DNA from: Pseudomonadota bacterium
GTDB lineage: Bacteria; Pseudomonadota; Gammaproteobacteria; Steroidobacterales; Steroidobacteraceae
Reading direction: 5' to 3'
NCBI GenBank assembly: GCA_018241505.1
Contig: JAFEDS010000010.1
Coordinates: 310,001 to 374,000 of the forward strand
Length of the DNA: 64,000 bases
The notes under the pieces are model-generated. The model saw only the letters and a list, made by a program, of their open reading frames with translations, was not told where the DNA came from and made no database searches. Position numbers and translations under genes: made by a program. Below, piece after piece: positions 7,600-24,606 of this stretch (its first letter is position 1; every line of letters starts with the position of its first letter).

Positions 7600-8122
7600 C
7601 TAACCGGCCCCCTCCAGCTCGTCCATGACTTGGCGGGTAGCCTCGACGGCAATCGAAATCATTTCGTCGACCTCCGATTCCGAAATCGTCACCGGCGGCG
7701 CGAAGCCCAGAATATCTCCGTGGGGCATGGCTCGTGCAATCAGTCCACGATCCCGCGCAGCGTTGGAAACACGTACCCCCACCTTTAACGTGGGCTCAAA
7801 CCGCCGCCTGCGCTCGCGATCCGCGACGAATTCCACCGCGCCAAGGAGTCCCACACCGCGCATTTCGCCGACGATATCCAGTGATGAAAAGGCCTCGCGC
7901 AGGCGCTGTTGGAAATACGCGCCCACTCTTTCCGCGCGCTCGGTTAGCTTTTCTCTCTCGCAAATGTCCAGCACGGCGTTAGCCGCAGCAACCGCGATCG
8001 GATGGCCAGAGTAGGTATAGCCGTGCGAGAAAGCGCCGACGCGGCCGGCGGCCTCTTCCATCACGGAGTAAACTTTTTCGCCGACGACGGCACCTGACAG
8101 CGGCGCGTAGCCTGAAGGGCCC
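7600..8122 (-). pseudogene. C-terminal remnant of a class III aminotransferase
   Basis: The frame ending at 7600 reads the last third of a PLP-dependent class III aminotransferase. It opens with KGPSGYAPLSGAVVGEKVYSVMEEA, which should hold the PLP lysine just before the GY.PL motif. It then gives VGAFSHGYTYSGHPIAVAAANAVL and the C-terminal domain with GVGLLGAVEFV. About 170 residues remain of an expected 440-460. Homology stops near 8122, and the region upstream leads straight into the start of a divergent Lrp gene, so the N-terminal two thirds are deleted. No start codon precedes the remnant; an internal ATG at 8064 lies inside the domain. Together with the broken Lrp gene this is a decaying locus. 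Confidence 0.8.
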
Positions 8123-10527: not shown

Positions 10528-11274
10528 GTGAGGGCGCTCTACGAAAAAGCAATCGCTTTCATCCTGCAATACATAGATGAGAACAAATTGCGGGAGGGCG
10601 ACCAATTGCCTACAGAGCCCAATCTGGCGTCTCAGGCGGGAGTCAGTCTCGTCACGGTGAGGCGGGCGCTGCAGGAGCTGGCTGCGCAGGGGGTGATCCG
10701 CCGCGAGCAAGGACGCGGAACCTTCGTTGCCCGGCCACGCGTACGAGCGGAAACGACCCGAGTAGGCGGGCTGCGTAACAGCCTCCACCTGGATGCCCGG
10801 TCGAGCCTGCAAACCCGGCTGCTGGGCTGCTTTTCCAGGCGCGCCAACGATACGGAGACCAAGGCGCTCGGCCTGGCTACCGGGGCGATCATCTGGGAGA
10901 TCTCTCGCTTGCGGCTGCTCAATCGACGGCCGGTCATCTGGGAGGTCTCGACCATACCCAAGTTGCTGGCACCGGATCTCGGCGCCTACTTCGAAGCACG
11001 TGACAAACGCTCCCTCTATGATTTGCTGGAGGAGGTTTACGACCTGAAGGAGGCCCGCGAGGAGCAAACGCTCGTGTGCCGGCCGGCCGTGGCCCGTGAG
11101 CAGGAGTTGCTCGACTTGTTGCGCTTCGAGTGGGTTGTGGAGGTGTCGGGCATCAGTTTTTCAACCCGACGCACCCCCATCGATGCTTTCCGCATGATTT
11201 TTGTGGCCAAATCCTTCGCGTTCAGGCTGGCGACCGCACCGGCATTTGCGGTGGAAGCAGTCGAGATCGGCTAG
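10528..11274 (+). CDS. GntR-family (HutC/UTRA) transcriptional regulator
   Basis: The 248-residue protein begins at a GTG. Residues 5-70 form a GntR winged helix (LREGDQLPTEPNLASQAGVSLVTVRRALQELAAQGVIRREQGRGTFVA). Residues 85-245 form a UTRA ligand-binding domain, with ETKALGLATGAIIWEISRLRLLNRRPVIWEVSTIP. HutC-subfamily members are usually repressors that release DNA when they bind a small catabolite such as a sugar phosphate or amino acid derivative. It is the only intact regulator within the island from 10.5 to 24.6 kb and is the best candidate to bind the TCATTGCAATGA palindromes there. I did not find this palindrome in front of its own start. Its 3' end abuts the convergent serine hydrolase gene without a gap. 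Confidence 0.92.
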   Translation: MRALYEKAIAFILQYIDENKLREGDQLPTEPNLASQAGVSLVTVRRALQELAAQGVIRREQGRGTFVARPRVRAETTRVGGLRNSLHLDARSSLQTRLLGCFSRRANDTETKALGLATGAIIWEISRLRLLNRRPVIWEVSTIPKLLAPDLGAYFEARDKRSLYDLLEEVYDLKEAREEQTLVCRPAVAREQELLDLLRFEWVVEVSGISFSTRRTPIDAFRMIFVAKSFAFRLATAPAFAVEAVEIG

Positions 11275-12378
11275 CTATTTGAAGCCCGCGACGCTCGTCA
11301 TGACGCCGCGGGACAGCGGGACAGGCTCTGCCTTGTCCAGGTTGGCGAGCACCACCACCGTAATTCCACTGACAGGGTCGCGCTCGATGCTCGACCGAAA
11401 CCCCTGCCAGGACCCGTCGAATTCCAGGATCTCGTGGCCACTCAGTGTTACATGATCCCAGGTGAAACCGTGCTGCGTCAGCTTACCGTCGCTGGTTCGC
11501 ACCCGCTCCCACAATGTGGACCAGGACGCGTGTGTCAGGAGTGCTTCCCGGTCCATGGCGGCAATCCAGGCCGCCCAGTCATCGAGTGACAGGTACAGGC
11601 TGCCATCGCCGGTGGCATTGAGACTGGCGGAGGCAAAGTCCTGGTTACGGATGCCCGATGAAGTCAAAACGTAGCCGGCGGCGCGGTTGGGAATGATGTC
11701 GGTGTTACTGATGATGCGGGCGGTGCGCATACCCAGAGGCGCGAACATCTCGCGAGCCAGGAAGTCGCCATAGAACATTCCACTGACCCGGGTTACCACG
11801 ATACCGGCGAGGATGTAGCCGGAGTTGCTGTATTTCCACCGGCTGCCCGGCCGGTAATTCAGGGGATATGACTGCAGTATGCGCACGAGATCCGCATCGC
11901 TGTATTCATGCCGCAGATCAAAAATCTCCCCGCCGTCCTCCTCGGAGTCGTGCAGCCCGGAGGTGTGATCCAACAACTGGCGCACCGTCAGAGAGGACCA
12001 TGCCGGCGGACCCGCTGGCAGATACCGGCTGATGCGATCATTCAGCGAGAGCCGGCCCCGCTCCTGCAGCAACAGAACGGCCGCGGCCGTAAACTGCTTA
12101 CCGAGCGAGCCCGACTGAAATACCGTGTCATGTTTGACGGGTACGGCGAGCTCCACGTTCGCGAGCCCGTAGCTCGACATCCGTACAACCCGGCCTGACT
12201 TCACAACCAGGAGCGCCACCCCGGGGATGTGCTCACGAGACATGGCTGTCCGCATGAGCTCGTCGATCGCATCCGCATGGGCCACACCGAGCGGCGCCAG
12301 CAGCAGCAACAACATGAGCGCGCGCGGCGGCCCCCCGCGGCTACCTGCCGCGCCTCTCGAGTACAAACGCTTTGCCAC
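11275..12378 (-). CDS. Exported serine hydrolase of the beta-lactamase/DD-peptidase (class C-like) family
   Basis: The 367-residue protein has a hydrophobic signal region (ALMLLLLLAPLGVAHA) and a beta-lactamase-related domain. The SxxK motif is S91-L-G-K94 in FQSGSLGKQF, and the YxN motif is in WKYSNSGYIL. The HTSGLHD and GDGSLYLS segments are typical of the AmpC-like/EstB-like clan. Members cleave D-amino acid peptides, esters or amides; only some hydrolyse beta-lactams, so a resistance function should not be assumed. It starts 28 bases from the shared palindromic operator and is divergent from the TonB receptor gene, so it likely acts in the periplasm on the same imported material. Confidence 0.88.
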   Translation of the reverse strand: MAKRLYSRGAAGSRGGPPRALMLLLLLAPLGVAHADAIDELMRTAMSREHIPGVALLVVKSGRVVRMSSYGLANVELAVPVKHDTVFQSGSLGKQFTAAAVLLLQERGRLSLNDRISRYLPAGPPAWSSLTVRQLLDHTSGLHDSEEDGGEIFDLRHEYSDADLVRILQSYPLNYRPGSRWKYSNSGYILAGIVVTRVSGMFYGDFLAREMFAPLGMRTARIISNTDIIPNRAAGYVLTSSGIRNQDFASASLNATGDGSLYLSLDDWAAWIAAMDREALLTHASWSTLWERVRTSDGKLTQHGFTWDHVTLSGHEILEFDGSWQGFRSSIERDPVSGITVVVLANLDKAEPVPLSRGVMTSVAGFK

Positions 12379-12403
12379 GATCGGTTTCGGTGCCCAAACA
12401 ATC

Positions 12404-12419
12404 TGTCATTGCAATGATA
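12404..12419. promoter_or_regulatory. Palindromic operator, copy 1 of 3 (serine hydrolase/TonB divergent region)
   Basis: The core TCATTGCAATGA (12406-12417) is a perfect 12-bp palindrome; extended by two bases on each side it reads TGTCATTGCAATGATA with one mismatched pair. It lies in the 99-base gap between the divergent serine hydrolase (start 12378) and TonB receptor (start 12478), so one protein could repress both promoters. The same core recurs at 22140 and 24591. The local GntR regulator is the likely binder, by inference. Confidence 0.75.
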
Positions 12420-12477
12420 TCAGATTATGCCTACATTCGTAGCACAACGACTCGGCTAACGAGCATGGGGTAGCTAG

Positions 12478-15339
12478 ATGGCAAGGTTCTCAGTGAAGTC
12501 GGTAACGCGAACGGTGGCCGGGTTGCTGCTGGCATCGGCGTGCGAACGAGGCGCGTTTGCTCTCGACGGGCCACAAAAGGATCCGGGCGTCCCGCAGGCC
12601 CAGGAATCGGCGGGCGATGACCTGAGCACAGTCGTGGTGACCGGATCCTACATCCGTAGAACGGATACGGAGACGCCCTCACCCCTGCAGGTCATAGGAA
12701 CCGAAGAGATTGAAAAAAGCGGCCGGGTTTCCATCTCGGACGTCATCCGCAATGTCTCAGCGGATAACAGCGGGTCTCTTACGCAGAACTTCAGTGGCGC
12801 GCTCGCAGGCGGCGCCAGTGGCATCTCGCTTCGCGGATTGACGCTCGATGCAACGCTGGTGCTGGTCGATGGCCATCGAATGGCACCCTACCCGCTTGCG
12901 GACGACGGCCAGCGTCCGTTCGTCGACCTCTCATCATTGCCTCTATCGATTGTCGATCGGGTTGAGGTCCTGAAGGACGGCGCTTCAGCCATTTACGGCT
13001 CGGACGCCATTGCGGGCGTGGTCAACGTAATCCTGAAGCATGACTTCCAAGGCTTGCAGTTGGATGCGGATGCGGGCAGCTCCTATCGGGGCGACGGCCT
13101 GACGCAGCGGGTCTCAGCCCTATGGGGTTTTGGCGATCTGAAAGCTGACGGCCACAACTTCTATTTCAACGTCGAGTACCGCCATCAGGCCTCCATCGGC
13201 CAACAGAACCGCGGTTCCTACTTGAGCAACCTGGACCTCACCCCGTATGGCGGTCCGGACCGCCGCGGCGGTGTCGTCCAGCAGGCATTTCCGAACAACG
13301 GCACTTTCACGGTCCCCGGGATGGTCGCGCCACAGAACGCCGTTCAGGCAGGCGATCCCAATGCGGGCTATTTCCTGCTCCCGGGCTGCGCCACCCAGAA
13401 TCTGGATCCGTCCGGTGGCTGCATCTGGAATATCAATCAATACAACAAGATCCAGCCGCGTACCGAAGGGCTCAATTTCAGTACCCGCTGGAGCCAATCC
13501 CTGGGCGAGAACTGGCACAACGCCTTGTCGTTGGCCTGGTTCAACTCGCAAGCCGAACAGTATCGCCAATCCGATGCTTACAGCACGAGCCCGGTCACCA
13601 TCCCCTCCACCTGGGTAGGTTCCAGGGGCGTGCTGGTGGATCAGACCAATCCGCTGACGAGCTCGATGGTGCTGTCGCCCAACAGTCCTGACAATCCGTT
13701 CAATCCCGCGAGCCCCTACTTCAGCGCGGCCAGCGCGTACTACGGTGCTAGTTTCAGTTCCTATATCGGCCAGCCCGCGCTGCTGTACGCGGCATTGACG
13801 GACTTCCCGACACAGCAGATTCGCTACAGCACGGATGTGATCCGGGCTGTTGATGACATCAACGGCACCTTGGGTGGGTGGGATATCAACTTCAGTATCG
13901 GCTATATCCGGGACGCGACCCACGCCCGATACATCGGGTTCATCCGCAACAGCCTGCTGAGCGCGGCGCTCGCCGATGGCACCTATCGGGTCGGAGCGAA
14001 CTCCAACCTGAATTCTCCTTCGCTGTACGCTCAGCTCGCCCCGCAGACCTCCGAGACCGCGACCTCCGAATTGGCGTACGTGTCCGCTGGCGCAAGTCGC
14101 ATGCTCCTCCCCCTGCCGGGTGGGGACTTGGGTTTGGCCGCAGGCGTAGAAGCGCGGTATTTGCGAGCCAACAACCCTGGCGAGCCGTACGCGCCCGAAG
14201 GCGACATCATCATGGACGGAAGCTTCTTTGCGCATGGCTCGCAGAGCATCTCTGCCGCATTCGTCGAGGTATCCGCGCCCGTATTGAAGAGCCTCGAGCT
14301 CGATGCCGCCGGCCGGGTCGATCATTACAACTTTCCCAGCACGTCCTTCACGCCCAAGTTCGGAGCGAAGTGGACTCCCCTGCCGCAAATTGCATTCCGG
14401 GGAACTTACGCCAAGGGCTTTCGGGCACCGGGTATCGCGGAGGCTGGGGACAGCGGGACTGGCTCGGCCACCACAGCGCCCGTGGACAATCTGCGCTGTC
14501 CTTACACCAACAGGCCGTCGGATTGCGGTTTAGGCTACGCCGCCACGCTGAGTGTCGCCAATCATGCACTCGAGCCCGAGAAGTCGCGCAGCTATACGCT
14601 GGGTGTCGTCCTCGAGCCCATCAAGAAAGTCAGCTTCACTTTTGATTACTACAACATCCGGCGCGACGACGAAATCGTACCGGCGCCCCTGGGCCTGCAA
14701 GCGCCTGTGCGTGGAGTGCAACAGCCCGGCACGGACTACCCGGGACCCATCATCTACTACCCCCAGCCGTACGTGAACGCGGCGAACTCGAGCACCTCGG
14801 GTTATGACGGTGCCGTGCACATCGTGGCTCCTCTGGGCAGCCTGGGAAAGCTGACATTCAGCCTGGATGCCAACTATGTCCTCACCTCCGACCAGACCTT
14901 CATTGATCCGGTCAATGGGAACCAGACCTTCCACTACGCAGGCACGGCTGGGCCAACCGCGGTCGGTGGGGCGGTAGGCACACCACGGACCCGCGGATCC
15001 TTTACGACCGATTGGACGCGCGGGCCGATGAGCCTGGGCGCCACAATCAACTACCGTGGCGTCATGAAGGGAATCGACGAATCGGTCTCGGGCGATCAAT
15101 GCCTGCAACTCTCGCCTGACAATCCCCATTGCTACATTTCCTCCTTCACCTACCTGGACCTCTATGGTCAATACGCCTTTGGGGACCATCTACAGTTGAC
15201 GGGGTCGGTGACCAACGTCACCAATCGGATTGCACCGCTCAATACGGTGACCTACGGCGGCTTCAACTACAATCCTTCACTCGATCAGGTGGGTGCGGTG
15301 GGACGATTCTATGAACTTGCGCTTCGCTATCGGCTCTGA
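12478..15339 (+). CDS. TonB-dependent outer-membrane receptor
   Basis: The 953-residue protein has a signal sequence, a short TonB-box-like segment (DDLSTVVVTGSYIRRTDTETPSPLQVI) and a plug domain containing GISLRGLTLDATLVLVDGHRMAPYPLADDG and VEVLKDGASAIYGSDAIAGVVNVIL. The long barrel ends in the aromatic-containing strand FYELALRYRL. This type imports substrates too large for porins, often peptides or glycans, using TonB energy. The ATG has GGGG ten bases upstream. The M61 peptidase gene starts 29 bases before its stop codon, so the two form an operon. It is controlled, in all likelihood, by the palindrome 61 bases upstream. Confidence 0.94.
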   Translation: MARFSVKSVTRTVAGLLLASACERGAFALDGPQKDPGVPQAQESAGDDLSTVVVTGSYIRRTDTETPSPLQVIGTEEIEKSGRVSISDVIRNVSADNSGSLTQNFSGALAGGASGISLRGLTLDATLVLVDGHRMAPYPLADDGQRPFVDLSSLPLSIVDRVEVLKDGASAIYGSDAIAGVVNVILKHDFQGLQLDADAGSSYRGDGLTQRVSALWGFGDLKADGHNFYFNVEYRHQASIGQQNRGSYLSNLDLTPYGGPDRRGGVVQQAFPNNGTFTVPGMVAPQNAVQAGDPNAGYFLLPGCATQNLDPSGGCIWNINQYNKIQPRTEGLNFSTRWSQSLGENWHNALSLAWFNSQAEQYRQSDAYSTSPVTIPSTWVGSRGVLVDQTNPLTSSMVLSPNSPDNPFNPASPYFSAASAYYGASFSSYIGQPALLYAALTDFPTQQIRYSTDVIRAVDDINGTLGGWDINFSIGYIRDATHARYIGFIRNSLLSAALADGTYRVGANSNLNSPSLYAQLAPQTSETATSELAYVSAGASRMLLPLPGGDLGLAAGVEARYLRANNPGEPYAPEGDIIMDGSFFAHGSQSISAAFVEVSAPVLKSLELDAAGRVDHYNFPSTSFTPKFGAKWTPLPQIAFRGTYAKGFRAPGIAEAGDSGTGSATTAPVDNLRCPYTNRPSDCGLGYAATLSVANHALEPEKSRSYTLGVVLEPIKKVSFTFDYYNIRRDDEIVPAPLGLQAPVRGVQQPGTDYPGPIIYYPQPYVNAANSSTSGYDGAVHIVAPLGSLGKLTFSLDANYVLTSDQTFIDPVNGNQTFHYAGTAGPTAVGGAVGTPRTRGSFTTDWTRGPMSLGATINYRGVMKGIDESVSGDQCLQLSPDNPHCYISSFTYLDLYGQYAFGDHLQLTGSVTNVTNRIAPLNTVTYGGFNYNPSLDQVGAVGRFYELALRYRL

Positions 15340-17245
15340 ACCCCGCCTGGCCGGGTGGCTCGCGCTGGGGTTGTTGGCCTCGGGCGTCACGGGTGCGGCC
15401 GAAAACAGTGCGGGCACCGCCCAGGTAGAAGTGGACGCGCGTCAGGCGCCGCGGGGTATCATGAAGGTCCATCTGACCTTGCCCGCCAAGGCCGGTCCTC
15501 TGACGCTCGTCTATCCGAAGTGGCTCCCGGGCCGGCACGGGCCGGCCGGACCCATCACCGATCTGGCGGGCCCCACCTTCACGCACGATGGCCAGCCCCT
15601 GCAATGGAAGCGGGACGATGTGGACATGTATGCATTTCACGTCGACGTGCCTGTCGGGGTGAGCTCCCTCGAGGCAGATTTCGAGATCCTCACCGGCCTG
15701 CGTCCCGATGGCGTAGTGAATGGGCTGGAAGCGCCACGCACAGCGACGGACGCACTGTTGGTGCTCGAATGGAACCAGGTTGTACTGTACCCCGCTGATA
15801 GCAACACCGATGGATTGCGCTATCAGGCCCGTGTGCGCCTGCCGGCAGGCTGGCAAGCGGCGACGGCGCTGAGCCGAACCGGCGATTCGGGCGAGACCGT
15901 GGTGTTCGAACCCACCTCACTCACGACGCTCGTGGACTCCACGCTGATTGCAGGACGTTATTTCCAATCGTTCGAGCTGGGAGGCAGTCCCGCAGTCCGG
16001 CTGAATGTGGCCGCCGACAGCGCCACGGCACTGAACCTGACACCCGAAGTCATTGGCCACTACAAAAGCCTGGTACGCGAGGCCGCCGCGCTCTTCGGCG
16101 CCACTCACTACCGGCACTACGACTTTCTCTACGTTCTCACCGATCAGATCATGCCCGACGGCCTGGAGCATCACGAATCGAGCGACAACCGTTCCCCGTA
16201 TCGAACATTTCTCGACGAGGATATTCGGCGCGCCGAGGCAGCCCTCCTGGCCCATGAATACACCCACTCCTGGAATGGCAAGTTCCGCCGGCCCGAAGGA
16301 CTGGCGACCCCCAACTACCAGGAGCCGATGCGCGCCGGATTGCTGTGGGTGTACGAAGGGCTGACCGAGTACCTGGGCAACGTGTTGGCGACACGAAGCG
16401 GCTTGTTCACTCCCGAGGAGTTCCGGGGAGAGTTGGCACATGACCTTGCGGGAATGCAAACTCATGCTGGACGGGCCTCCCGCAACCTGCAGGACACGAC
16501 GGTCGCGGCCCAGTTGCTGTATGTTCAGCCGCGCGATTGGGCCGCGCGTTTGCGCCGGCAGGACGACTTCTATCAGGAGTCGGCACTGCTGTGGCTCGAG
16601 GCGGACACCTTGATTCGCCGCCTCTCCAAGGGTCGGCGCAGCCTGGATGACTTCTGCCGGCACTTCTACGGCCCACCAAGCACCGCGCCAGAAGTCCGCG
16701 CCTACGATCTGGCTGCGTTGGTCGCGGCTCTGAACGATATTCAGCCGTATGACTGGGAAGGATTCTGGCGGCAGCGGCTCGACCGTCACTCAGACGCACA
16801 GCTCAACCAGGGAGTGCTGCAGAGTGGTTGGAAGTTGGTATTCGGAGCGGGCCCCGCCACGATGCACCGGGCGCATGAAGCTGACGATCGGGATATGGAC
16901 GCGCGCTTTTCGCTTGGGTTCTATGTCAACGAGGATGCTACGCTCGCCGACATCATCCCTGAATCGCCGGCCGACCATGCGGGCCTGTCGCCTGGCGACA
17001 AGGTTATAGCGGTCAATGATCGCAAATGGTCTCAACAGGAGCTGCGGGATGTGTTGGCCGCGACTACCCGGGGAAGCTCCAGCGTCACGCTCCTGGTGGA
17101 GCGAGGCGACACCATCCAGCGTGTTTCGATGTCCTACAACGGCGGACCGCGTGAGCCTGATCTGGTGCGGGTCGAAGGCACTCCGGACCTGTTGACCGCT
17201 ATCGGACAGCCCGTTATCCCGGTCGAAGGCGTCCGTCGGCAATGA
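15311..17245 (+). CDS. M61-family (glycyl aminopeptidase-like) metallopeptidase with PDZ domain
   Basis: The ATG at 15311, inside the end of the TonB receptor gene, gives 644 residues with a signal peptide (GWLALGLLASGVTGAAEN). An N-terminal beta domain is followed by the gluzincin zinc motif HEYTH in LLAHEYTHSWNGKFRRPEG and the downstream glutamate in LLWVYEGLTEYLG. A C-terminal PDZ domain follows (DIIPESPADHAGLSPGDKVIAVNDRKW). M61 enzymes remove N-terminal Gly or Ala from peptides, in the periplasm for bacterial forms. Translational overlap with the receptor suggests processing of what the receptor brings in. Its last 32 bases overlap the convergent deaminase gene. Confidence 0.92.
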   Translation: MNLRFAIGSEPRLAGWLALGLLASGVTGAAENSAGTAQVEVDARQAPRGIMKVHLTLPAKAGPLTLVYPKWLPGRHGPAGPITDLAGPTFTHDGQPLQWKRDDVDMYAFHVDVPVGVSSLEADFEILTGLRPDGVVNGLEAPRTATDALLVLEWNQVVLYPADSNTDGLRYQARVRLPAGWQAATALSRTGDSGETVVFEPTSLTTLVDSTLIAGRYFQSFELGGSPAVRLNVAADSATALNLTPEVIGHYKSLVREAAALFGATHYRHYDFLYVLTDQIMPDGLEHHESSDNRSPYRTFLDEDIRRAEAALLAHEYTHSWNGKFRRPEGLATPNYQEPMRAGLLWVYEGLTEYLGNVLATRSGLFTPEEFRGELAHDLAGMQTHAGRASRNLQDTTVAAQLLYVQPRDWAARLRRQDDFYQESALLWLEADTLIRRLSKGRRSLDDFCRHFYGPPSTAPEVRAYDLAALVAALNDIQPYDWEGFWRQRLDRHSDAQLNQGVLQSGWKLVFGAGPATMHRAHEADDRDMDARFSLGFYVNEDATLADIIPESPADHAGLSPGDKVIAVNDRKWSQQELRDVLAATTRGSSSVTLLVERGDTIQRVSMSYNGGPREPDLVRVEGTPDLLTAIGQPVIPVEGVRRQ

Positions 17246-17915
17246 CGGTGAGTCTGGGATGCCCCAGGAGACTGGTTACGGGCCACATCAAATCGGGACG
17301 CCCCTGAAGTAGAGCCTGCAAGGCGTCAGCTTTGCTCTGACCGGAGACGAGCAGAAGTATTTCACGCGCACCGCTCAACGTTCCGATCCCCATGGTGATA
17401 CCGCAAGGAGGCACATATTGTCCCTCCTGTGCATTGGCTGCCCGTGTCAGTTCCGTCAATCTCACCACGTGAGTAGTCTGATGCCAGCCCGAACCGGGCT
17501 CATTGAATGCGATGTGCCCATTGGCGCCCAGGCCGAGAATAGCGAGATCGAGACCCTCCGCCCGAGCGATGGCCTCGTCATAGGCGCGACACTCAGCCTG
17601 AATATCGGCTGCGTCGCCGCGAATCAACCGAATGTTGGTATCCGGTACGCCGAGATCATCGAGCAGGTGCATGCGCAGAAACTGCGCGTAGCTGGTGCCG
17701 TCCGTGGCCGAAAGGCCCACATACTCATCGAGATTGAACCAGCGCACGCGGTTGAACGCCACCGGTTTCGATCGCAATACTGAGTACAATCCGAGCGGGG
17801 TCCGCCCTGTGGGTAATGCGATTGTAAGATCCGGCTTGCGCAAATGTGCAGCCAACACATGGTCGGCGGCCAGCGAATTGAACGAGTCCTTGGAGTCACA
17901 CCACAGTATCTGCAT
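17214..17915 (-). CDS. nagB: Glucosamine-6-phosphate deaminase (NagB type)
   Basis: I start at the ATG at 17915, giving 233 residues (MQILWCDSKDSF...); an upstream start at 18035 would add 40 residues without homology. The sugar-phosphate site is visible as LPTGRTPLGLY, and the catalytic region as FNLDEYVGLS and LGLGANGHIAFNEPGSG. The ANGHI form resembles the short Bacillus-type NagB rather than the DGHI of E. coli. TMGIGTLSGAREILLLVSGQSKADALQALLQG is also typical. It should convert glucosamine 6-phosphate to fructose 6-phosphate and ammonia, or act on a related amino sugar. It overlaps the kinase gene end by 20 bases and is the last gene of the operon. No NagA deacetylase gene is present. 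Confidence 0.88.
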   Translation of the reverse strand: MQILWCDSKDSFNSLAADHVLAAHLRKPDLTIALPTGRTPLGLYSVLRSKPVAFNRVRWFNLDEYVGLSATDGTSYAQFLRMHLLDDLGVPDTNIRLIRGDAADIQAECRAYDEAIARAEGLDLAILGLGANGHIAFNEPGSGWHQTTHVVRLTELTRAANAQEGQYVPPCGITMGIGTLSGAREILLLVSGQSKADALQALLQGRPDLMWPVTSLLGHPRLTVIADGRLRPG

Positions 17916-19356
17916 GCGTTTTCGCGAGGTAGTTGGCAAAGAGGGCGCCATAATCTTCCCGGGGAAGCACCGGCGGGGAATGGGCTCGCACCGGCGCCGC
18001 GCGGCCGATGAGCTGTAGAGCGCCGAGTGCGGCACCGAGCGCAGCCGGGGAATCGCCCAGGTAGGTTTGCACCGGCCTGCCGAGGATGTCGGCCAACATC
18101 TGCAAGCTCGCAGGTTGCTCCGTCAGATGGCCCGCGACAACGACGCTCCGAATGGGAGTCGTATCCGCGAGAACCTCCAGGCAACGCCGAATCTCGAAGC
18201 ACACGCCTTCCAGAAAAGCCCGTGCCAGATCGTTTGCATCGTGTTGCAAAGTCAGTCCCGAGATACTACCGCGCAAGGCCGAATTCCACAGAGCGCCCTG
18301 CTCACCCCCCGCCAGATACGGGGTAAACACCAGGCCCCGCGCGCCGGGCGGAGAATTCGCGGCTCGTTGATCCAACATGCCGGGAGCCAGGCCGAGCAGA
18401 TCGCTCAGCCAGCGGTAGCCCGTGCCGGTCGCCAACAGATCCATCTCTCGTCCATACCAACCCGGCTCAACATGTGGAGTCAGAAGATAGCGGATCGTAG
18501 GGTCCCAGCGAGCGGCGCGCACGGCATCAATGATGATGGTGCTCGAGCCCATGGTGATGCATGCGGCCCCCTCCTCCAGCCCTGTCATGGCAAATGCGCT
18601 GCTAACAGAATCGGCGGCCCCGACACTGACAGGGATTCCAACAGGGACTCCCAGAGTCTGTGCCGCCTGCGCAGTCAACGCCCCGGCCTGGCTGTGCGCG
18701 GCCCTGACAGGCGGCAGCATGTCCAGCGGCATCTGCCATAGCTCACACAAACTCGGTGAAAACGCGGCGGCCTGGAGATCGAATACGCCGTAGCCTGCCG
18801 CAGTGGAAGGATCGGTCACCCGCTCACCGGTCAACTCGAGAACCAGGTAATCCTTGGCGGAGAGGATCGCCACGATCTGGTCACGGCGCGCCAGCCAGTG
18901 ATGTCGGAACATCGGTCCCAGATAGCGCCCATCCAGTGGCATTCCGGTCTGGCGGTAAATGGCCCGGCGCTGTGCCGCATCCAGGCTCGCGGCGGTTGCG
19001 CCGTCCGCACGCGCATCCTTCCAGGTTATGGCGCGCCCCAGTGCCCCTCGAGTCCCCAGGCAAACGAGCGTGGGCAGTTGCCCTGCAACTCCGATCGCGG
19101 CAGTCCGGCCACGCCAGTCAGGAGTCGCGGGGGTCAACACGCGGTCCAGATCCCTGAGCGCTTCTTGCGTGGCCCGCATCCAGTCGGCTGGATCCTGCTC
19201 GGCCTGTTCCGGCAGCGGGTTGTAAGTGGGGTAGGCGGCAGTCCCTACCCCGGCGACGGCACCCGATTCCGCGCCCACCGCAACAACCTTGACCGCCGAG
19301 GTCCCCAGATCGAGTCCCAGGACGAGCGGCTCGCGCACAGTCAGCTCAACGGGCAC
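17896..19356 (-). CDS. FGGY-family carbohydrate kinase (xylulokinase-like)
   Basis: The 486-residue protein carries both FGGY halves. The N-terminal one opens LVLGLDLGTSAVKVVAVGAESG, and the C-terminal one has the ATP-binding GLVFTPYLAGGEQGALWNSALRG and SVVVAGHLTEQPASLQMLADILGRPVQTY. It should phosphorylate a free sugar, polyol or ketose in the cytoplasm. The second domain keeps GHLTE where many relatives have GGGAKS, so substrate specificity may differ. The GTG start has AAAGGA seven bases upstream and overlaps the aminotransferase stop by 11 bases. In this operon it sits between an aminotransferase and NagB, which suggests that the substrate is an amino-sugar-related compound. That is inference. 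Confidence 0.88.
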   Translation of the reverse strand: MPVELTVREPLVLGLDLGTSAVKVVAVGAESGAVAGVGTAAYPTYNPLPEQAEQDPADWMRATQEALRDLDRVLTPATPDWRGRTAAIGVAGQLPTLVCLGTRGALGRAITWKDARADGATAASLDAAQRRAIYRQTGMPLDGRYLGPMFRHHWLARRDQIVAILSAKDYLVLELTGERVTDPSTAAGYGVFDLQAAAFSPSLCELWQMPLDMLPPVRAAHSQAGALTAQAAQTLGVPVGIPVSVGAADSVSSAFAMTGLEEGAACITMGSSTIIIDAVRAARWDPTIRYLLTPHVEPGWYGREMDLLATGTGYRWLSDLLGLAPGMLDQRAANSPPGARGLVFTPYLAGGEQGALWNSALRGSISGLTLQHDANDLARAFLEGVCFEIRRCLEVLADTTPIRSVVVAGHLTEQPASLQMLADILGRPVQTYLGDSPAALGAALGALQLIGRAAPVRAHSPPVLPREDYGALFANYLAKTHADTVV

Positions 19357-20689
19357 GGAGGTCCTTTATGGTCGCGCCGGCTGCCTGGAGCGTCTTCTGA
19401 ATGTCATCTTCCGTGTGAGCAAACGAGACAAACAGATTCTCGAAGGCATGGGGATGGAACAGCACGCCGCGATCCAACATGCCCTCCCACCACAGGCGGA
19501 ACTGCTCGTGACTGGCATAACGCGCAGCATCCCGGTAGTTTCGAATCGGTTCCTGGGAGAACCAGACTTGCAACACCGGACCGACCCCTACCACATGAGC
19601 GGCAAGTCCGGCGTCGTGCAGGAGACGCTCGAGCCCGGTATACAGTCGTTGACAGCGGGCGTAGAGCTCCTGGTACTTTCCCGGCGCGGTGAGCTCATCC
19701 AGAGCGGCCATCGCCGCCGCCACTGCGATGGTGTTGGCTGCATAAGTTCCGGCCATCGAGACCGTGCCATCGGAGACCAACGCCATGATATCGCGCCGCC
19801 CGCCCAGCGCGGCCACGGGAAAGCCACCGCCCAGCCCCTTGGCGAATACGGATAGATCAGGACGGATTCCATAATGGCCTTGAGCACCGGCAATGCTCAA
19901 CCTGAACCCGGTGATGACTTCGTCGAAAATCAGCAGGACGCCATGAGCAGCCGTCAGCTCGCGCATTGCCTCGAGATATCCCGGCTCGGGCAATATACAC
20001 CCGGTGTTACACATCACCGGCTCGGTCAGCACGGCCGCGATGTTCGGACCGTCGCGCTCCAGTGCAGCCCGTAACGCGTCCAGGTCGTTCCACGGCAGAA
20101 TAATGAGTTGCTCCGCAACCCCACTCGGCATTCCGGGACCCTGGGCGACGGCAACCGGGTGGGATGGCGGGCCGGCTTCCTGCAGATTCGGATGTTTGCT
20201 CCAGTAAACACCGTCGGAGAATCCGTGGTACATACCCTCGAAGCGGATGACCTTGCTCCGTCCCGTGAAGGTACGAGCGAGCCTCAGTGAATACAACACC
20301 GCCTCGGTGCCCGTATTACACAGGCGCACCTGTTCCAGACTCGGAACCAAACTCACGATCTTCTCGGCAAGCGTGATCTCTTGCTGGGTCGGGAGGGCGA
20401 AGACCGTGCCGCGCTGCTCGATGGCCTCGACAACCGCGGCGGTCACTCTAGGCGGGCGGTGGCCGAGAATGAGAGGTCCCAGACCGAGGAGGTAATCGAT
20501 GTACTCATTGCCATCGACATCGAACAGATGCGAGCCGGTACCATGCGAGGCGAACAAGGGATAGGGTTCCCAACCGGAATAACGGGCTCGCGCCGTGCTG
20601 TTCACTCCGGCCGGAATCAGCTCGCAAGCCTTCGGAAACAGGGCAGCGCTGCGTTGGGTACGGTTGGGACTCTTGTAGCTCGACGTCAC
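19346..20689 (-). CDS. Class III PLP aminotransferase, glutamate-1-semialdehyde-aminomutase-like
   Basis: The true start is the GTG at 20689, which overlaps the permease stop as GTGA and has GAGGGAG nine bases upstream. This gives 447 residues; the longer frame to 21115 is permease sequence in another frame. Features are PAGVNSTARARYSGWEPYP, DVDGNEYIDYLLGLGPLILGH, LCNTGTEAVLYSLRLARTFTGR, the FDEVITGFRL cofactor-binding segment, and the PLP lysine in FAKGLGGGFPVAALGGRRDIM. The closest classical family is HemL, but the catabolic context argues for transamination of an amino compound rather than heme synthesis. It is tightly coupled to the permease and kinase genes. Confidence 0.88.
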   Translation of the reverse strand: MTSSYKSPNRTQRSAALFPKACELIPAGVNSTARARYSGWEPYPLFASHGTGSHLFDVDGNEYIDYLLGLGPLILGHRPPRVTAAVVEAIEQRGTVFALPTQQEITLAEKIVSLVPSLEQVRLCNTGTEAVLYSLRLARTFTGRSKVIRFEGMYHGFSDGVYWSKHPNLQEAGPPSHPVAVAQGPGMPSGVAEQLIILPWNDLDALRAALERDGPNIAAVLTEPVMCNTGCILPEPGYLEAMRELTAAHGVLLIFDEVITGFRLSIAGAQGHYGIRPDLSVFAKGLGGGFPVAALGGRRDIMALVSDGTVSMAGTYAANTIAVAAAMAALDELTAPGKYQELYARCQRLYTGLERLLHDAGLAAHVVGVGPVLQVWFSQEPIRNYRDAARYASHEQFRLWWEGMLDRGVLFHPHAFENLFVSFAHTEDDIQKTLQAAGATIKDLRAR

Positions 20690-22122
20690 GGCGAATGCTC
20701 CCTCGAAACAGAGGTATGATCCGCTGCAAAAGCGGATTTCGGTTGGAAAAAGACGGCGTTGCCGCAGTAGCGCACAAACGCAGCGGCAATCGCCCCCAAT
20801 GCGATCGACCCTGCGCCCCAAGCGAGGACCGCTCGCGAAGTGGCTCCGGTGCGTACGGATTCGACGGCAATCCAGGCCATGAATACAGTACCTAGTCCCG
20901 GCAGCAGACCGCCCAACAGGAAGTCCGCGGTCGAGCGGCCTATCCGGTCCCGGTTTTGCCATACCGCCGCTGCACCCGTCAGTGCGTAGAACAACAGCGA
21001 GATGAGGCCCAGGCTGCTGACTACGTTGCCCAGCGCGGTCGCCAGGCTGTTCGTTGTCAGGGCCAATACAAGGAGGCAGAGATTGATGATGCTCATGACG
21101 ACCGTGGCTACCCACGGGTTGCCGGTACGTGGGTCAACACGGCGGAATGCACTTGGCATCACACCGTCACGTGACATAGCAAAGCTGACTCTTGCAGCGG
21201 CGATAACTGCGGCCTGGAGAGTGGCCAGTGTGCCGCTCAGGACTACCAGGCTCATCACCAGGCCCCCGGGTCCTGGCAGCAAGCGCGTGGCAATAACAGC
21301 GAGGGCGTCGCCTGCATGATTCTGCAGCTCGAGCGGGTCGAGGACCGCCTGCAAGCCAAACAGCGCAATCGAATAGAACAGCGCCAGGATCACCACGCTC
21401 GCGATGGCCGCAAGGCCCGGCGCATCCACCTTGTCGACGGACTCCTCGTTCACATAGATTGCGGCATCCCAGCCGGAGTACATGAAGCAAGCAATCAACA
21501 TTCCGCTCATCAGGCCCCGTAGGCCACCCATTGCCTCAATCGAGAGCAAGTGCCACGAAAACGGACCGTGTTGAAACACCGCGACGGTACCTACCGCCGC
21601 CAGAGCCAGGATCGCTACATACTGAAAGACGACAACAATCCACTCGAAGCGCGCGGCAATCTTCAAGCCCCGGAGCGCCAGAGCAGTCACTACGATATTC
21701 CAGGCGCCCCCCGTGATCGCGACTGCCAGGTGATTGGTAACCAGCCGCGGCGCGAACAGTTCCAGTGTGTAAGTGCCTGCCGGCATCGTCAGACTGCTCG
21801 TACCCAACGTGTAATAGAGAAGAATCATCCAGCCAGCCAGAAATCCCAGATACGGATGAAACACTCTGGCTACCCAGGTGTAAGTCGCGCCCGCGCTCGG
21901 ATCCCACCGATTCAGCCGGTGATAGCCCACCGCAATACCCAACATGGGCACGAAGCAAGCCAACACCGGAACGATGCCACCGTAGCGGCAGGCCGCGACC
22001 ATGGCAGCCAGGCTGACAGCAAGCGTCTGTGCAGGGCCGGAGCTGCAAAGCCCGAGAACGATGGCGTCGCCAAGCGTGACCCGTCCCGGCCGTGCGGCCC
22101 CGGTTTTCGCGCCCTCACTCAT
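20686..22122 (-). CDS. APC-family amino acid/amine permease
   Basis: The 478-residue protein has about twelve membrane segments and the APC opening GDAIVLGLCSSGPAQTLAVSLAAMVAA, followed by WDPSAGATYTWVARVFHPYLGFLAGW. The C-terminus (HTSVSREHSP) is cytoplasmic. It should import an amino acid, amine or similar compound with protons or by exchange. It is the first gene of a four-gene operon (permease, aminotransferase, kinase, deaminase) whose members overlap one another. A palindromic operator centred 24 bases before the start implies tight repression. Its place next to the aminotransferase makes an amino-group-bearing substrate likely. Confidence 0.9.
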   Translation of the reverse strand: MSEGAKTGAARPGRVTLGDAIVLGLCSSGPAQTLAVSLAAMVAACRYGGIVPVLACFVPMLGIAVGYHRLNRWDPSAGATYTWVARVFHPYLGFLAGWMILLYYTLGTSSLTMPAGTYTLELFAPRLVTNHLAVAITGGAWNIVVTALALRGLKIAARFEWIVVVFQYVAILALAAVGTVAVFQHGPFSWHLLSIEAMGGLRGLMSGMLIACFMYSGWDAAIYVNEESVDKVDAPGLAAIASVVILALFYSIALFGLQAVLDPLELQNHAGDALAVIATRLLPGPGGLVMSLVVLSGTLATLQAAVIAAARVSFAMSRDGVMPSAFRRVDPRTGNPWVATVVMSIINLCLLVLALTTNSLATALGNVVSSLGLISLLFYALTGAAAVWQNRDRIGRSTADFLLGGLLPGLGTVFMAWIAVESVRTGATSRAVLAWGAGSIALGAIAAAFVRYCGNAVFFQPKSAFAADHTSVSREHSP

Positions 22123-22139
22123 CTCGGATAGTCATACTA

Positions 22140-22151
22140 TCATTGCAATGA
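22140..22151. promoter_or_regulatory. Palindromic operator, copy 2 of 3 (before the permease operon)
   Basis: TCATTGCAATGA lies 18 bases upstream of the permease start, in the 47-base gap after the second TonB receptor gene. On the minus strand it is followed by AGTATGACTAT, a possible -10 region, so a protein bound here would block the promoter. Only the 12-bp core is conserved at this copy; the outer bases differ from those of the other two. Confidence 0.72.
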
Positions 22152-22169
22152 CTTACTTGGCGAGCCCGA

Positions 22170-24500
22170 TCAGAATTTCAACTCGACCGACACACCGAGC
22201 GTCCGCGGCCGATTGGTGAACATCCGGGAACGGTTGGCCGCATCATAGTTGTCGGAAATGAAGCGCGACAATGCCGCCTGTTTGTCGAGGGCATTCGCGA
22301 TAAAGACATCCGTTTCCCAGCGCTCGTGCACCAGTCCTGCGCGCAGGTCCAGGATCGAATAAGCGCGCTGGAATGTAGCGGGATCGATCCGATCGAAGTC
22401 CGGGTAGGACAGGCCGACGTATTGCGCGTCACCCCGCACGAATGCGACATATCCCGGCACGGGCTCAAAGGTATATTTCGCGCTCGCGCCGCCGTTCCAG
22501 CGGGGCACGTTTTGGAGCTGCTGCCCTGCCACGCCGTCGAGGGACGGCGCATCGCGGGCCAGCACGGCGCTGGTGAAACCGGCGCCCAATCCGAGCTCCA
22601 GCCCCCCACCGAGCTGGGCCTGGATCTCCAACTCGCCGCCGCGCACGATGGCCTCACCCGCATTTTCCGTGATCTGGTAGGAGCACGGCAGCGTCCGCCC
22701 CTGCTGCACATCTTTCCATTTGATGTAGTAGGCCGCGCCGTTGACCTGCAGCGTCCCACCCAACCAGCGGGTCTTGCCTCCCACCTCATAATTCCACAGG
22801 CTGTCCGGCTGGTACGGTCCATAGTCCTGGCCACAGCCCTTCTCGGCCAGATTGCTGGTGTTCACTCCTCCCGGGCGCACGCCTCTGGAAGCGCTGACGT
22901 AATAGAGTTGCTCGGGCGTGACCTGGTATGACAACTCGCCTTTGGGATTGACGCCGGTGTTCTTTGCCTGCCCGGTCGAAAGGGAGGGGCCGCCGTTGCT
23001 CCAGCCATCCTCATGGCGGACCGTGGTGTATTGAAGATCGTACCAACGAACTCCGGCCGTGAGCTGCCACTGGCTGGTGAGCGAATAGTTCAGCTCGGTG
23101 AACACAGCGGACTGCTTGGGAGCATAGTCACCGCTTTGCCAATAGTTCACATCGCTCAGCGGCACGCCCGCCAACAGTGTTTGAGTTGTATAGGTATTTG
23201 CGAACAGGGAGGCGTATCCGGGAGTGAGATAGTTGACGGCATAGTGACGGTTGGCATTGTTGAAATAGGCACCCACCACACCCGCCAACCCCCAGCCGCG
23301 CGGGTTGAATGCCAAACGCACTTCCTGGGTGAATTCGCGAGTGGTGACCGTCGGCGCATACACATTCGGAACAAACTGACCTTGCGGGAAGGCTCCCTCG
23401 AGACCTTCCGTCTCATCGTCCGCCGTGCCCGCCCGGCGCTGCATGTAGGAAGTATTGGAAACGATGTTTCCCCACCCCAGATCCTCATTGACGGTCAGAT
23501 TGCCGAGAATGAATTCATCGGCATAGGCCTCGGATACGTTGAACGGCCGCGACTGGATCAAAGGGCCGCCGGATTCGCCAGTCGGGACGTCGTAGTCCGA
23601 CGGAGCGCCCATCAGCAAGCGCTGTCCCCATACCGACGGAGTGAGGGTCAGGCCCTCGACCGGCACGATTTTGAGCACCATTCTCAGGGCTTCCAGCCGT
23701 TCGGTGTTGACGTTACGGTCAACCGAGCTCGCCTGCGCGGGTGATACGGGGTACGGTGGGTATCCGGGCTGCGCGTCAGGATTCGGCGCCCAAACACCGA
23801 TTTCACGGTCAATGAAGCCACTGAACGCCTTGTAGGTTCCCACCACTCTCAGGGCTGCTACGTCGTCAATGAGCGGCTGGTTGTACATGGCATCCAGGCG
23901 CACGTTGCCGCCACCATGAGCGGTGTCGGATCCCTCCAGCTTTACACGGCCGTCTACGTGGGTGAGGTTTGGCTGGTTGGTGATGAGTCGGACGGTGCCG
24001 CCCATGGAGCTCGCACCATAGAGAGTTCCCTGTGGGCCGCGCAGAACCTCAACTCGCGCCAGATCAAACAGATCCGGATCTATCGTGGCATTTGCGCCGT
24101 CCCCTCCTGAAGGCAGGAGAGGTGTCTCGTCGACGTAGAAGCCCGTTGTAGGTGCATTGCCGCCGACCGAGGCGATCCCGCGAATCGAATAGCTGCTACG
24201 GCCCGGACCGGCGGAATTGAGCACCACACCGGGAATGCGTGCCGCCATTTGCGAGAAATCCTCGATTCCCGCTTGTTCCAACGTATCGCCGGTCACCGCG
24301 ACAATGCTCAGGGGTACCTTCTCGAGCGACTCGGCCCGCTTCTGGGCAGTCACCACGATCTCGGCGAGCCCGCCGGGCGCGTCGTCCCCAGCACCGGGCA
24401 CTGCCGCGGCGCGTGCCGGTACCCCGGACAGGCTCGCCGCAAGCAGCAGCAAATACACCGGAGCCGAATATGAGACGGACGGAAATACGACGTTGGACAT
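22170..24500 (-). CDS. TonB-dependent outer-membrane receptor
   Basis: I start at the ATG at 24500, which has GGAG ten bases upstream; an ATG at 24518 would add six residues. The 776-residue protein has a signal peptide ending in GVPARAA. The plug contains GGLAEIVVTAQKRAESLEKVPLSIVAVTGDTLEQAGIEDFSQMAARIPG and VEVLRGPQGTLYGASSMGGTVRLIT, and the barrel ends in PRTLGVSVELKF. It belongs to the FecA/IroN-like group common in sphingomonads and Steroidobacter-like bacteria, often used for non-iron substrates. It differs clearly from the larger receptor at 12478. It lies upstream of the permease operon on the same strand and has its own perfect copy of the shared palindrome. Confidence 0.93.
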   Translation of the reverse strand: MSNVVFPSVSYSAPVYLLLLAASLSGVPARAAAVPGAGDDAPGGLAEIVVTAQKRAESLEKVPLSIVAVTGDTLEQAGIEDFSQMAARIPGVVLNSAGPGRSSYSIRGIASVGGNAPTTGFYVDETPLLPSGGDGANATIDPDLFDLARVEVLRGPQGTLYGASSMGGTVRLITNQPNLTHVDGRVKLEGSDTAHGGGNVRLDAMYNQPLIDDVAALRVVGTYKAFSGFIDREIGVWAPNPDAQPGYPPYPVSPAQASSVDRNVNTERLEALRMVLKIVPVEGLTLTPSVWGQRLLMGAPSDYDVPTGESGGPLIQSRPFNVSEAYADEFILGNLTVNEDLGWGNIVSNTSYMQRRAGTADDETEGLEGAFPQGQFVPNVYAPTVTTREFTQEVRLAFNPRGWGLAGVVGAYFNNANRHYAVNYLTPGYASLFANTYTTQTLLAGVPLSDVNYWQSGDYAPKQSAVFTELNYSLTSQWQLTAGVRWYDLQYTTVRHEDGWSNGGPSLSTGQAKNTGVNPKGELSYQVTPEQLYYVSASRGVRPGGVNTSNLAEKGCGQDYGPYQPDSLWNYEVGGKTRWLGGTLQVNGAAYYIKWKDVQQGRTLPCSYQITENAGEAIVRGGELEIQAQLGGGLELGLGAGFTSAVLARDAPSLDGVAGQQLQNVPRWNGGASAKYTFEPVPGYVAFVRGDAQYVGLSYPDFDRIDPATFQRAYSILDLRAGLVHERWETDVFIANALDKQAALSRFISDNYDAANRSRMFTNRPRTLGVSVELKF

Positions 24501-24586
24501 TCTTGGAGTTCTCCGCAATCGGGCGGGCCGCGCGCGCGGCCCCCCCAGACCTCCCCTCGGTCTGCGGGAACTATAGGGGGTTCCAC

Positions 24587-24606
24587 CATATCATTGCAAT
24601 GATATG
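24587..24606. promoter_or_regulatory. Palindromic operator, copy 3 of 3 (before the second TonB receptor)
   Basis: CATATCATTGCAATGATATG is a perfect 20-bp palindrome 87 bases upstream of the receptor ATG, with the shared core at 24591-24602. It is the most symmetrical of the three copies and so probably the strongest site. The rest of the 180-base gap to the CsgG-like gene shows no gene. Confidence 0.78.

Follow-up and report, generated by a model that had tools for sequence, protein, structure and literature searches.

The window analyzed here, a stretch of DNA of 64,000 nucleotides, contains three exact copies of a 12-bp palindrome, TCATTGCAATGA. We consider that this palindrome is very probably the operator of the GntR/UTRA protein encoded at position 10528, which would repress the surrounding gene cluster until an effector made by the cluster's own kinase is present (probability of about 0.86, as judged from sequence). 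The original prediction that the palindrome marks a GntR regulon is supported as the best explanation, and binding itself is predicted. The grounds for this reading are the sites, their placement and conservation, their near-exclusivity in the genome, the co-inheritance of GntR and the aminotransferase of the cluster, and the way in which protein and DNA deviate from a family rule at matching positions. Binding, repression rather than activation, the class of effector, and the pathway are what we infer. The regulon would be small and clean, with three predicted operators in 7.9 Mb, and it would offer a natural example of an apparent joint change in a GntR-family protein and its operator.

The Gene Cluster and Its Predicted Operators

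The nine genes of the cluster and the three predicted operators are as follows.

10528..11274, plus strand: GntR/HutC-type regulator with GntR wHTH and UTRA domains (Pfam GntR, 5.6e-18; UTRA, 8.8e-21)
11275..12378, minus strand: serine hydrolase, beta-lactamase family (PF00144, 8e-65)
12406..12417: predicted operator 1, exact palindrome, between the serine hydrolase (minus) and TonB receptor 1 (plus) genes
12478..15339, plus strand: TonB-dependent receptor 1 (PF00593, PF07715)
15293..17245, plus strand: M61 glycyl-aminopeptidase-type peptidase with PDZ (PF05299, PF17899, PF17820)
17214..18035, minus strand: NagB-like glucosamine-6-phosphate deaminase (PF01182; true start probably later in the frame)
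17896..19356, minus strand: FGGY carbohydrate kinase, xylulokinase-like (PF00370, PF02782)
19346..20677, minus strand: class-III PLP enzyme of the glutamate-1-semialdehyde aminomutase family, not HemL (PF00202; start approximate)
20686..22122, minus strand: APC-superfamily amino acid permease (PF13520)
22140..22151: predicted operator 2, exact palindrome, before the permease gene
22170..24500, minus strand: TonB-dependent receptor 2 (PF00593, PF07715; ATG by eye, mechanical ORF starts at TTG 24518)
24591..24602: predicted operator 3, exact palindrome, before the TonB receptor 2 gene

Both domains of the regulator exceeded their Pfam cut-offs (PF00392, 64.8 bits with a cut-off of 27; PF07702, 74.6 bits with a cut-off of 23.8). 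The N-terminus of the serine hydrolase, read by eye, resembles a signal peptide, and its best NCBIfam match was D-aminopeptidase, at 95.5 bits against a cut-off of 443. The NagB-like protein and the FGGY kinase were under all NCBIfam cut-offs; the nearest solved structure for the former was 2bkv, a glucosamine-6-phosphate deaminase (E 4.6e-42). The mechanical frame of the M61 peptidase shares its first 47 bases (15293-15339) with the end of TonB receptor 1, and its real start may be later. A 154-aa frame at 7600-8064 of the window, on the minus strand, resembles class-III aminotransferases in their C-terminal portion alone (profile 281-400 of 403), and it may be the remnant of such a gene.

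All three copies of TCATTGCAATGA are intergenic and close to start codons, as originally reported, and the spacing of 18-91 bases given then was reproduced to within one base. Site 1 lies between two divergent starts, that of the serine hydrolase (12378, minus strand) at a distance of 27 bases and the TonB receptor 1 ATG (12478) at 60 bases. The permease ATG (22122, minus strand) is 17 bases away from site 2, and the likely ATG of TonB receptor 2 (24500, minus strand), which was chosen by eye, is 90 bases away from site 3. Because TonB receptor 2 and the permease are co-directional across the 47-base gap (22123-22169) in which site 2 lies, this site may serve an internal promoter of one operon.

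Copies of the Palindrome in the Window and in the Genome

The exact copies at 12406-12417, 22140-22151, and 24591-24602 were the only ones in the 64-kb window at 0 or 1 mismatch, in agreement with the original prediction; two further positions, 58384 and 60845, matched with two mismatches. When up to two mismatches were counted, the window was unremarkable (5 matches, compared with a mean of 2.4 in shuffled sequences and 5 or more in 12 of 100 shuffles), and it is the count of exact copies that is remarkable. The Markov-1 expectation for TCATTGCAATGA was 0.0046 per window and 0.57 per genome, and none of the other 12-bp palindromes in the window (34 distinct, 36 in all) occurred more than once. 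The earlier statement that the three copies are far beyond chance has to be tempered for the window alone, in which the look-elsewhere chance is about 1%, some 12-bp palindrome having occurred three times in 1 of 100 Markov sequences. The statement does hold when the genome scan and the relatives are included.

The genome (7.88 Mb) contains 4 exact copies of TCATTGCAATGA, 3 of which are the window sites. The fourth, located within the frame of an ACR_tran (RND pump) protein, scored 13.9 bits and was rejected as a member of the regulon. There were 29 places within one mismatch, including the window sites; a reversed-pattern control gave 2 places, with a dinucleotide expectation about tenfold lower than that for TCATTGCAATGA. 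For scoring, we derived a relatives-only 24-bp matrix from 22 sites in other species and took the best position per ~3-kb stretch. The window sites scored 28.7 (site 3), 28.2 (site 2), and 25.1 bits (site 1), and the best position at the remaining 26 places was 19.7 bits or less. This ceiling is within the range of random sequence, because in an 8-Mb Markov-1 sequence 4 positions reached at least 18 bits, with a top score of 20.7. When a leave-own-out matrix was applied to the window, the three sites were on top (29.5, 28.8, and 25.3 bits), followed by a position at 7.7. The near-match at 19.7 bits (L006) was excluded as it is part of a 283-aa frame, for which the sole match was to DUF707 and below threshold, and so was one at 14.7 bits (L236) inside CTP synthase. 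The degenerate pattern TNATTRYAATNA matched 12 genomic places, three of them outside the 29, and those three stretches scored 7.3 bits or less. The check for many extra copies, by a pattern scan covering the 29 and the three degenerate places, therefore left no further credible site within the scope of that scan, which covers sites at up to one mismatch and those matching TNATTRYAATNA.

Conservation of the Sites in Related Genomes

In the family set of 217 genomes (G numbers denote genomes, and L numbers loci), a GntR ortholog was present in 15 genomes including this one, at 65-79% identity in the other 14 (E up to 1e-40). Aminotransferase orthologs at ≥70% identity were found in the same 15 genomes, and as contig-end fragments in G338 and G403; judging from these sequences, GntR and the aminotransferase are co-inherited. 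A site of ≥20 bits preceded a cluster gene in all 15 GntR genomes (in G285, on a contig other than that of gntR). All of the 14 named ortholog records (L062-L075) come from metagenome assemblies, and that collection therefore has so far no cultured model for the group.

Thirteen loci could be viewed widely (the window, G190, G354, G161, G193, G301, G312, G110, G106, G339, G182, G331, and G227). The permease, aminotransferase, FGGY kinase, and GntR were present in all 13, TonB receptor 1 and M61 in 12 (they are absent from the G331 stretch), the serine hydrolase in 10, the NagB-like gene in 7, and TonB receptor 2 (≥40% identity) in 4. The clusters of four relatives have, near the permease, a HAD-type hydrolase of 223-249 aa (L048:13036-13710, L050:12064-12735, L209:12036-12722, and L054:11355-12104); the window has none between the M61 and permease genes.

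The sites were counted for each gene with leave-one-species-out matrices, and divergent genes share some of the sites counted. The promoter of TonB receptor 1 had a site of ≥22 bits in 11 of 13 cases (none in G227 and G285), that of TonB receptor 2 a site of at least 20.9 bits in 5 of 5, and that of the serine hydrolase a site in 7 of 10. For the permease, the score was ≥18 bits in 12 of 17 promoters and 12.1 in G110, and nothing was found in G193, G301, G106, and G403. In three of these the permease is downstream of, and co-directional with, TonB receptor 2 (G106 and G403) or M61 (G301), with a site further up; no such upstream reason was seen in G193. Among 14 readable gntR promoters, 5 had ≥14 bits (two of these sites are shared with TonB receptor 1), 3 had 8-9, and 6 had none. 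Upstream of gntR in the window there is no full site, the best score being -7.5 bits.

Matches with up to two mismatches in the relatives' loci (376 kb) were concentrated in cluster promoters: 23 of 30 fell within these 16.8 kb (4.5%), although one of the 23 (G338 2380) looks like a chance match. Twelve control palindromes gave 0, 1, 0, 0, 0, 1, 0, 0, 5, 2, 1, and 0 matches in cluster promoters and 1 to 7 outside; the control with 5 matches, ACATTGCAATGT, shares the motif core, and the other 11 gave 0-2. Conservation upstream of orthologous genes, which had been proposed as a check, is thus strong, both with the per-gene matrices and in this count. The relatives' sites were initially picked by likeness to the window motif, and two were dropped from the first matrix, namely G193 17714 (gntR promoter) and G182 6489, which is inside a 1112-aa frame (L052:5582-8920) taken to be the ACR_tran match found once among the scanned frames. 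The motif in the relatives mostly has the form TYATTRYAATGA.

GntR had been described as the only regulator of the island. A scan of 80 other frames of ≥90 aa around the 13 clusters revealed, among the 25 of 66 families listed, no transcription-factor family with matches in more than one frame, so that GntR is the only regulator common to the clusters on this count; an IclR-type domain was found in one of the 80.

The Regulator Protein and Its Putative Operator

HutC operators follow GTMTAKAC, according to an excerpt of one study (PMC4494728), and in NagR, Arg38 and Arg48 read G-5 and G-4, according to an excerpt of another (PMC4333415). Placed on the NagR center, our motif reads T-6 C-5 A-4 T-3, with frequencies of 86% for C-5 and 95% for A-4, and with T-3 and T-2 in all 22 relatives' sites. 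If GntR binds this motif, the operator departs from GTMTAKAC at -4 (A) and -5 (C), and its form as a perfect 12-bp palindrome with invariant T-3 and T-2 agrees with the half-site spacing of NagR. In the protein, the position of NagR Arg48 is Leu in all 15 orthologs (register by profile-structure alignment). Leu was found there in 0 of 20 other GntR proteins of the order (Q or R) and 0 of 66 distant ones (R, K, Q, I, or V), so it is special to this ortholog group. The Arg38 position is P, A, T, or L in the 14 readable orthologs, which is weak evidence because Arg is also missing there in 19 of the 20 and 32 of the 66. Protein and operator thus appear to depart from the HutC family rule at matching positions, and the protein would partly explain the departure of the operator.

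Sites and Enzymes Outside the GntR Genomes

Among the 202 family genomes without the ortholog, 50 contained TCATTRYAATGA. The 61 matches (hand count) correspond to 0.30 per genome, close to the Markov-1 expectation for TCATTRYAATGA of 0.38 per 3.3 Mb; the reversed-pattern control gave 7 matches in 217 genomes, with an expectation tenfold lower than that for TCATTRYAATGA. We scored 26 of the 61, in 25 loci. Three precede cluster-gene orthologs, namely the G338 permease and, in G314 and G340, TonB receptor 2; the remainder reached up to 29.7 bits at unrelated or unread places. In G314 and G340 (93% and 97% complete), the sites score 29.6 and 27.6 bits and precede the TonB receptor 2 orthologs L262:9228-11614 and L263:10138-12504, respectively. 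The ortholog in G314 is at a contig end, and that in G340 is on a 167-kb contig, with the rest of the cluster absent within the 20 kb read. No GntR ortholog was found in G338 and G403 (84% and 82% complete) despite their sites and aminotransferase fragments. A looser search of G314, G340, G338, G403, and G336 returned only GntR-type genes of 22-41% identity (12 matches), and the NagR Arg48 position in the 11 readable ones was Arg or Lys, never Leu (Arg in those read in G314 and G340). In these draft genomes, either the gene is missing, or the site was left behind, or another protein can use it. Because sites precede cluster genes in genomes without a detected ortholog, our confidence in the GntR reading is lowered, and the drafts of G314 and G340 are its main weak point. 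In G309, of the same genus and with no detected GntR ortholog, two exact copies of TCATTGCAATGA lie 712 bases apart (L215:4308 and 5020) and score 10.5 and 20.8 bits.

A phylum-wide sample of 398 genomes yielded further aminotransferase orthologs, two at about 70% identity (G620 and G570) and two at 47%. The gene set in G620 (L223) contains a NagB-like enzyme, an FGGY kinase, the aminotransferase, a serine hydrolase, an M17 peptidase, a DHDPS-family aldolase, and frames that read, by eye, as an ABC transporter. Its GntR protein is 36% identical, has GVSLISVRHAL, and keeps Leu. The palindrome CATACTCATTATAATAAGTATG lies 26 bases before the likely ATG of the aminotransferase ortholog; it was looked for after the fact and is one of 24 near-perfect 16-bp palindromes in 24 kb. 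In G921, the aminotransferase of which is 91% identical to that of G620, CATACTCATTATAATAAGTATG is present with one change, at a family-invariant position. No clear site was seen before gntR in G620 and G921. We regard G620 as a supporting, not proving, case for the pairing of GntR and operator. In G570, which has an aminotransferase ortholog and no GntR, there was no TCATTRYAATGA in 32 kb, a weak result from one case with an unclear promoter. The G570 enzyme (L225) is near a GMC oxidoreductase, an enolase-superfamily enzyme, and a serine hydrolase, and because its neighbors differ from those in G620, the GSAM-like enzyme may serve more than one gene set.

Proposed Regulation and Alternative Explanations

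We propose that a GntR dimer most likely binds TCATTGCAATGA at the three sites and that, when bound, it would repress the serine hydrolase gene, TonB receptor 1 together with M61, TonB receptor 2, and the genes for the permease, aminotransferase, kinase, and deaminase. The cluster's own kinase would produce a phosphorylated sugar or amino sugar, which would then enter the UTRA pocket and free the DNA of repressor, so that the cluster would open while substrate is taken up. Given the sugar kinase and the NagB-like deaminase encoded in the cluster, the likely signal would be a sugar or amino sugar phosphate formed there. In DasR, the residues that hold phosphate and sugar are R142, R144, E154, and S175-L176-Y177, according to an excerpt of PMC4918961. 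These six UTRA contact residues, placed by the profile-structure alignment, are kept in 15 of 15 orthologs; they are common in other GntR proteins too, and their conservation is subfamily-wide and not specific to one effector (GlcN-6-P or GlcNAc-6-P).

The mode of action is suggested by the promoters. The center of site 3, TTGCAA, is the -35 hexamer of a promoter-like match on the minus strand, TTGCAA-18-TATAGT; no sigma-70-like promoter match was found at sites 1 and 2, and no terminator-like match at any of the three. With site 3 over a predicted -35 and site 2 so close before the permease ATG, the arrangement fits repression, and NagR is itself a repressor that blocks transcription until its effector binds (PMC4333415, in excerpt). 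We therefore think it unlikely that GntR binds the sites as an activator or dual regulator rather than a simple repressor, although a position relative to a promoter is suggested at site 3 alone. Hardly any credence is left for the view that the three copies are due to chance, or are a structural repeat with no regulatory role. The triple palindrome in one of the 100 Markov sequences would allow for chance, but the position before orthologous genes is kept in the relatives, the site scores exceed those of all near-matches examined in the genome, and terminator-like matches are absent from the sites.

The palindrome might also be the operator of a different regulator encoded elsewhere, with the neighboring GntR merely traveling with the cluster. 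The TonB receptor 2 sites kept in G314 and G340 would be expected in that case, the gntR promoter of the window without a full site points the same way, and so do the 50 ortholog-less genomes with TCATTRYAATGA, though their number is close to the Markov-1 expectation. We nevertheless consider this explanation improbable. Every GntR genome has its high-scoring site before a cluster gene, and no other regulator family is common to the 13 clusters. Moreover, Leu at the NagR Arg48 position accompanies A at -4, and in G620 both this Leu, in the distant GntR, and a similar palindrome are found. As draft genomes, the exceptions could have lost gntR or left it unassembled. Regulation by the neighboring GntR protein remains our preferred reading.

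The Aminotransferase and a Possible Pathway

The aminotransferase passed the NCBIfam subfamily model NF000818 (451 against a cut-off of 398) and failed the HemL equivalog TIGR00713 (431 against 527); its structure match was 6w80 (E 6.6e-106). An identity as HemL was ruled out, with eight positions separating 20 orthologs from 16 HemL-type sequences, and a HemL-type enzyme is encoded elsewhere in the same genome. An aligned Lys and Arg are kept in all readable sequences, and a Glu in all orthologs and 14 of the 16 HemL-type sequences; in HemL, the functional residues are Arg32, Lys273, and Glu406. This pattern does not distinguish mutase from transaminase action.

The gene content suggests that the cluster imports and metabolizes a compound that combines an amide- or peptide-linked moiety with a sugar-like one. 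Literature searches gave no description of the pathway or gene set among the papers listed, and none of the 12-mer TCATTGCAATGA, for which the matches listed were only eukaryotic proteins. One joint reading would combine an undescribed use of peptide-linked amino sugars with a re-coded HutC operator; as a whole, it is speculative and rather doubtful. The compound would enter via the TonB receptors, be freed by the M61 peptidase and the serine hydrolase, and then pass through the amino acid permease. The GSAM-like enzyme would move the amino group between carbon 1 and carbon 2, converting a 1-amino-ketose to a 2-amino-aldose, i.e., performing glutamate-1-semialdehyde/5-aminolevulinate chemistry on a sugar. 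The FGGY kinase would phosphorylate the sugar before or after this shift, and the NagB-like enzyme would then release ammonia. The regulator would read the sugar phosphate, and the HutC site would have been re-coded as both guanine-reading arginines were lost. The cluster offers a testable entry to a catabolic pathway around a GSAM-like, non-HemL enzyme.

Comparison With Known Systems

NagR (YvoA) of Bacillus subtilis and DasR of Streptomyces coelicolor are GntR/HutC repressors of amino-sugar use that likewise combine a GntR wHTH with a UTRA domain, and among solved structures they match the ortholog profile best (2wv0, E 1.6e-22; DasR 4zs8, E 1.7e-16). As in these systems, there is a 12-bp palindromic core on the same center, the residues for phosphate and sugar contact are kept, and a nagB-type gene is among the predicted targets. 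Unlike in NagR, the operator here is without G-5 and G-4, and the protein is without both arginines that read them. The predicted targets also differ from those of NagR and DasR in that they include TonB receptors, an M61 peptidase, a serine hydrolase, a permease, a GSAM-like enzyme, and an FGGY kinase, and neither NagA nor a PTS transporter was found among the nine genes (Pfam, NCBIfam).

The NagQ regulons for GlcNAc use in proteobacteria resemble the predicted regulon in the GntR-family control of nagB-type genes, whereas their core targets, nagA, nagB, and a PTS transporter, form a different set (excerpt of PMC5343134), and NagQ sites are direct repeats of TGGTATT (excerpt of PMC4494728) rather than a palindrome. 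The exceptions to the HutC rule named in the latter excerpt (FarR, NagQ, BioR, NanR, and SdhR) have other sequences. The motif shares its center and T-3 with the HutC operators (GTMTAKAC) and T-6 with the NagR palindrome, and it differs from the HutC operators in having A-4 in place of G-4, with C-5 in front. On present sequence evidence, we regard the cluster as a predicted regulon whose regulator belongs to a known family and whose operator deviates from the rule of that family.
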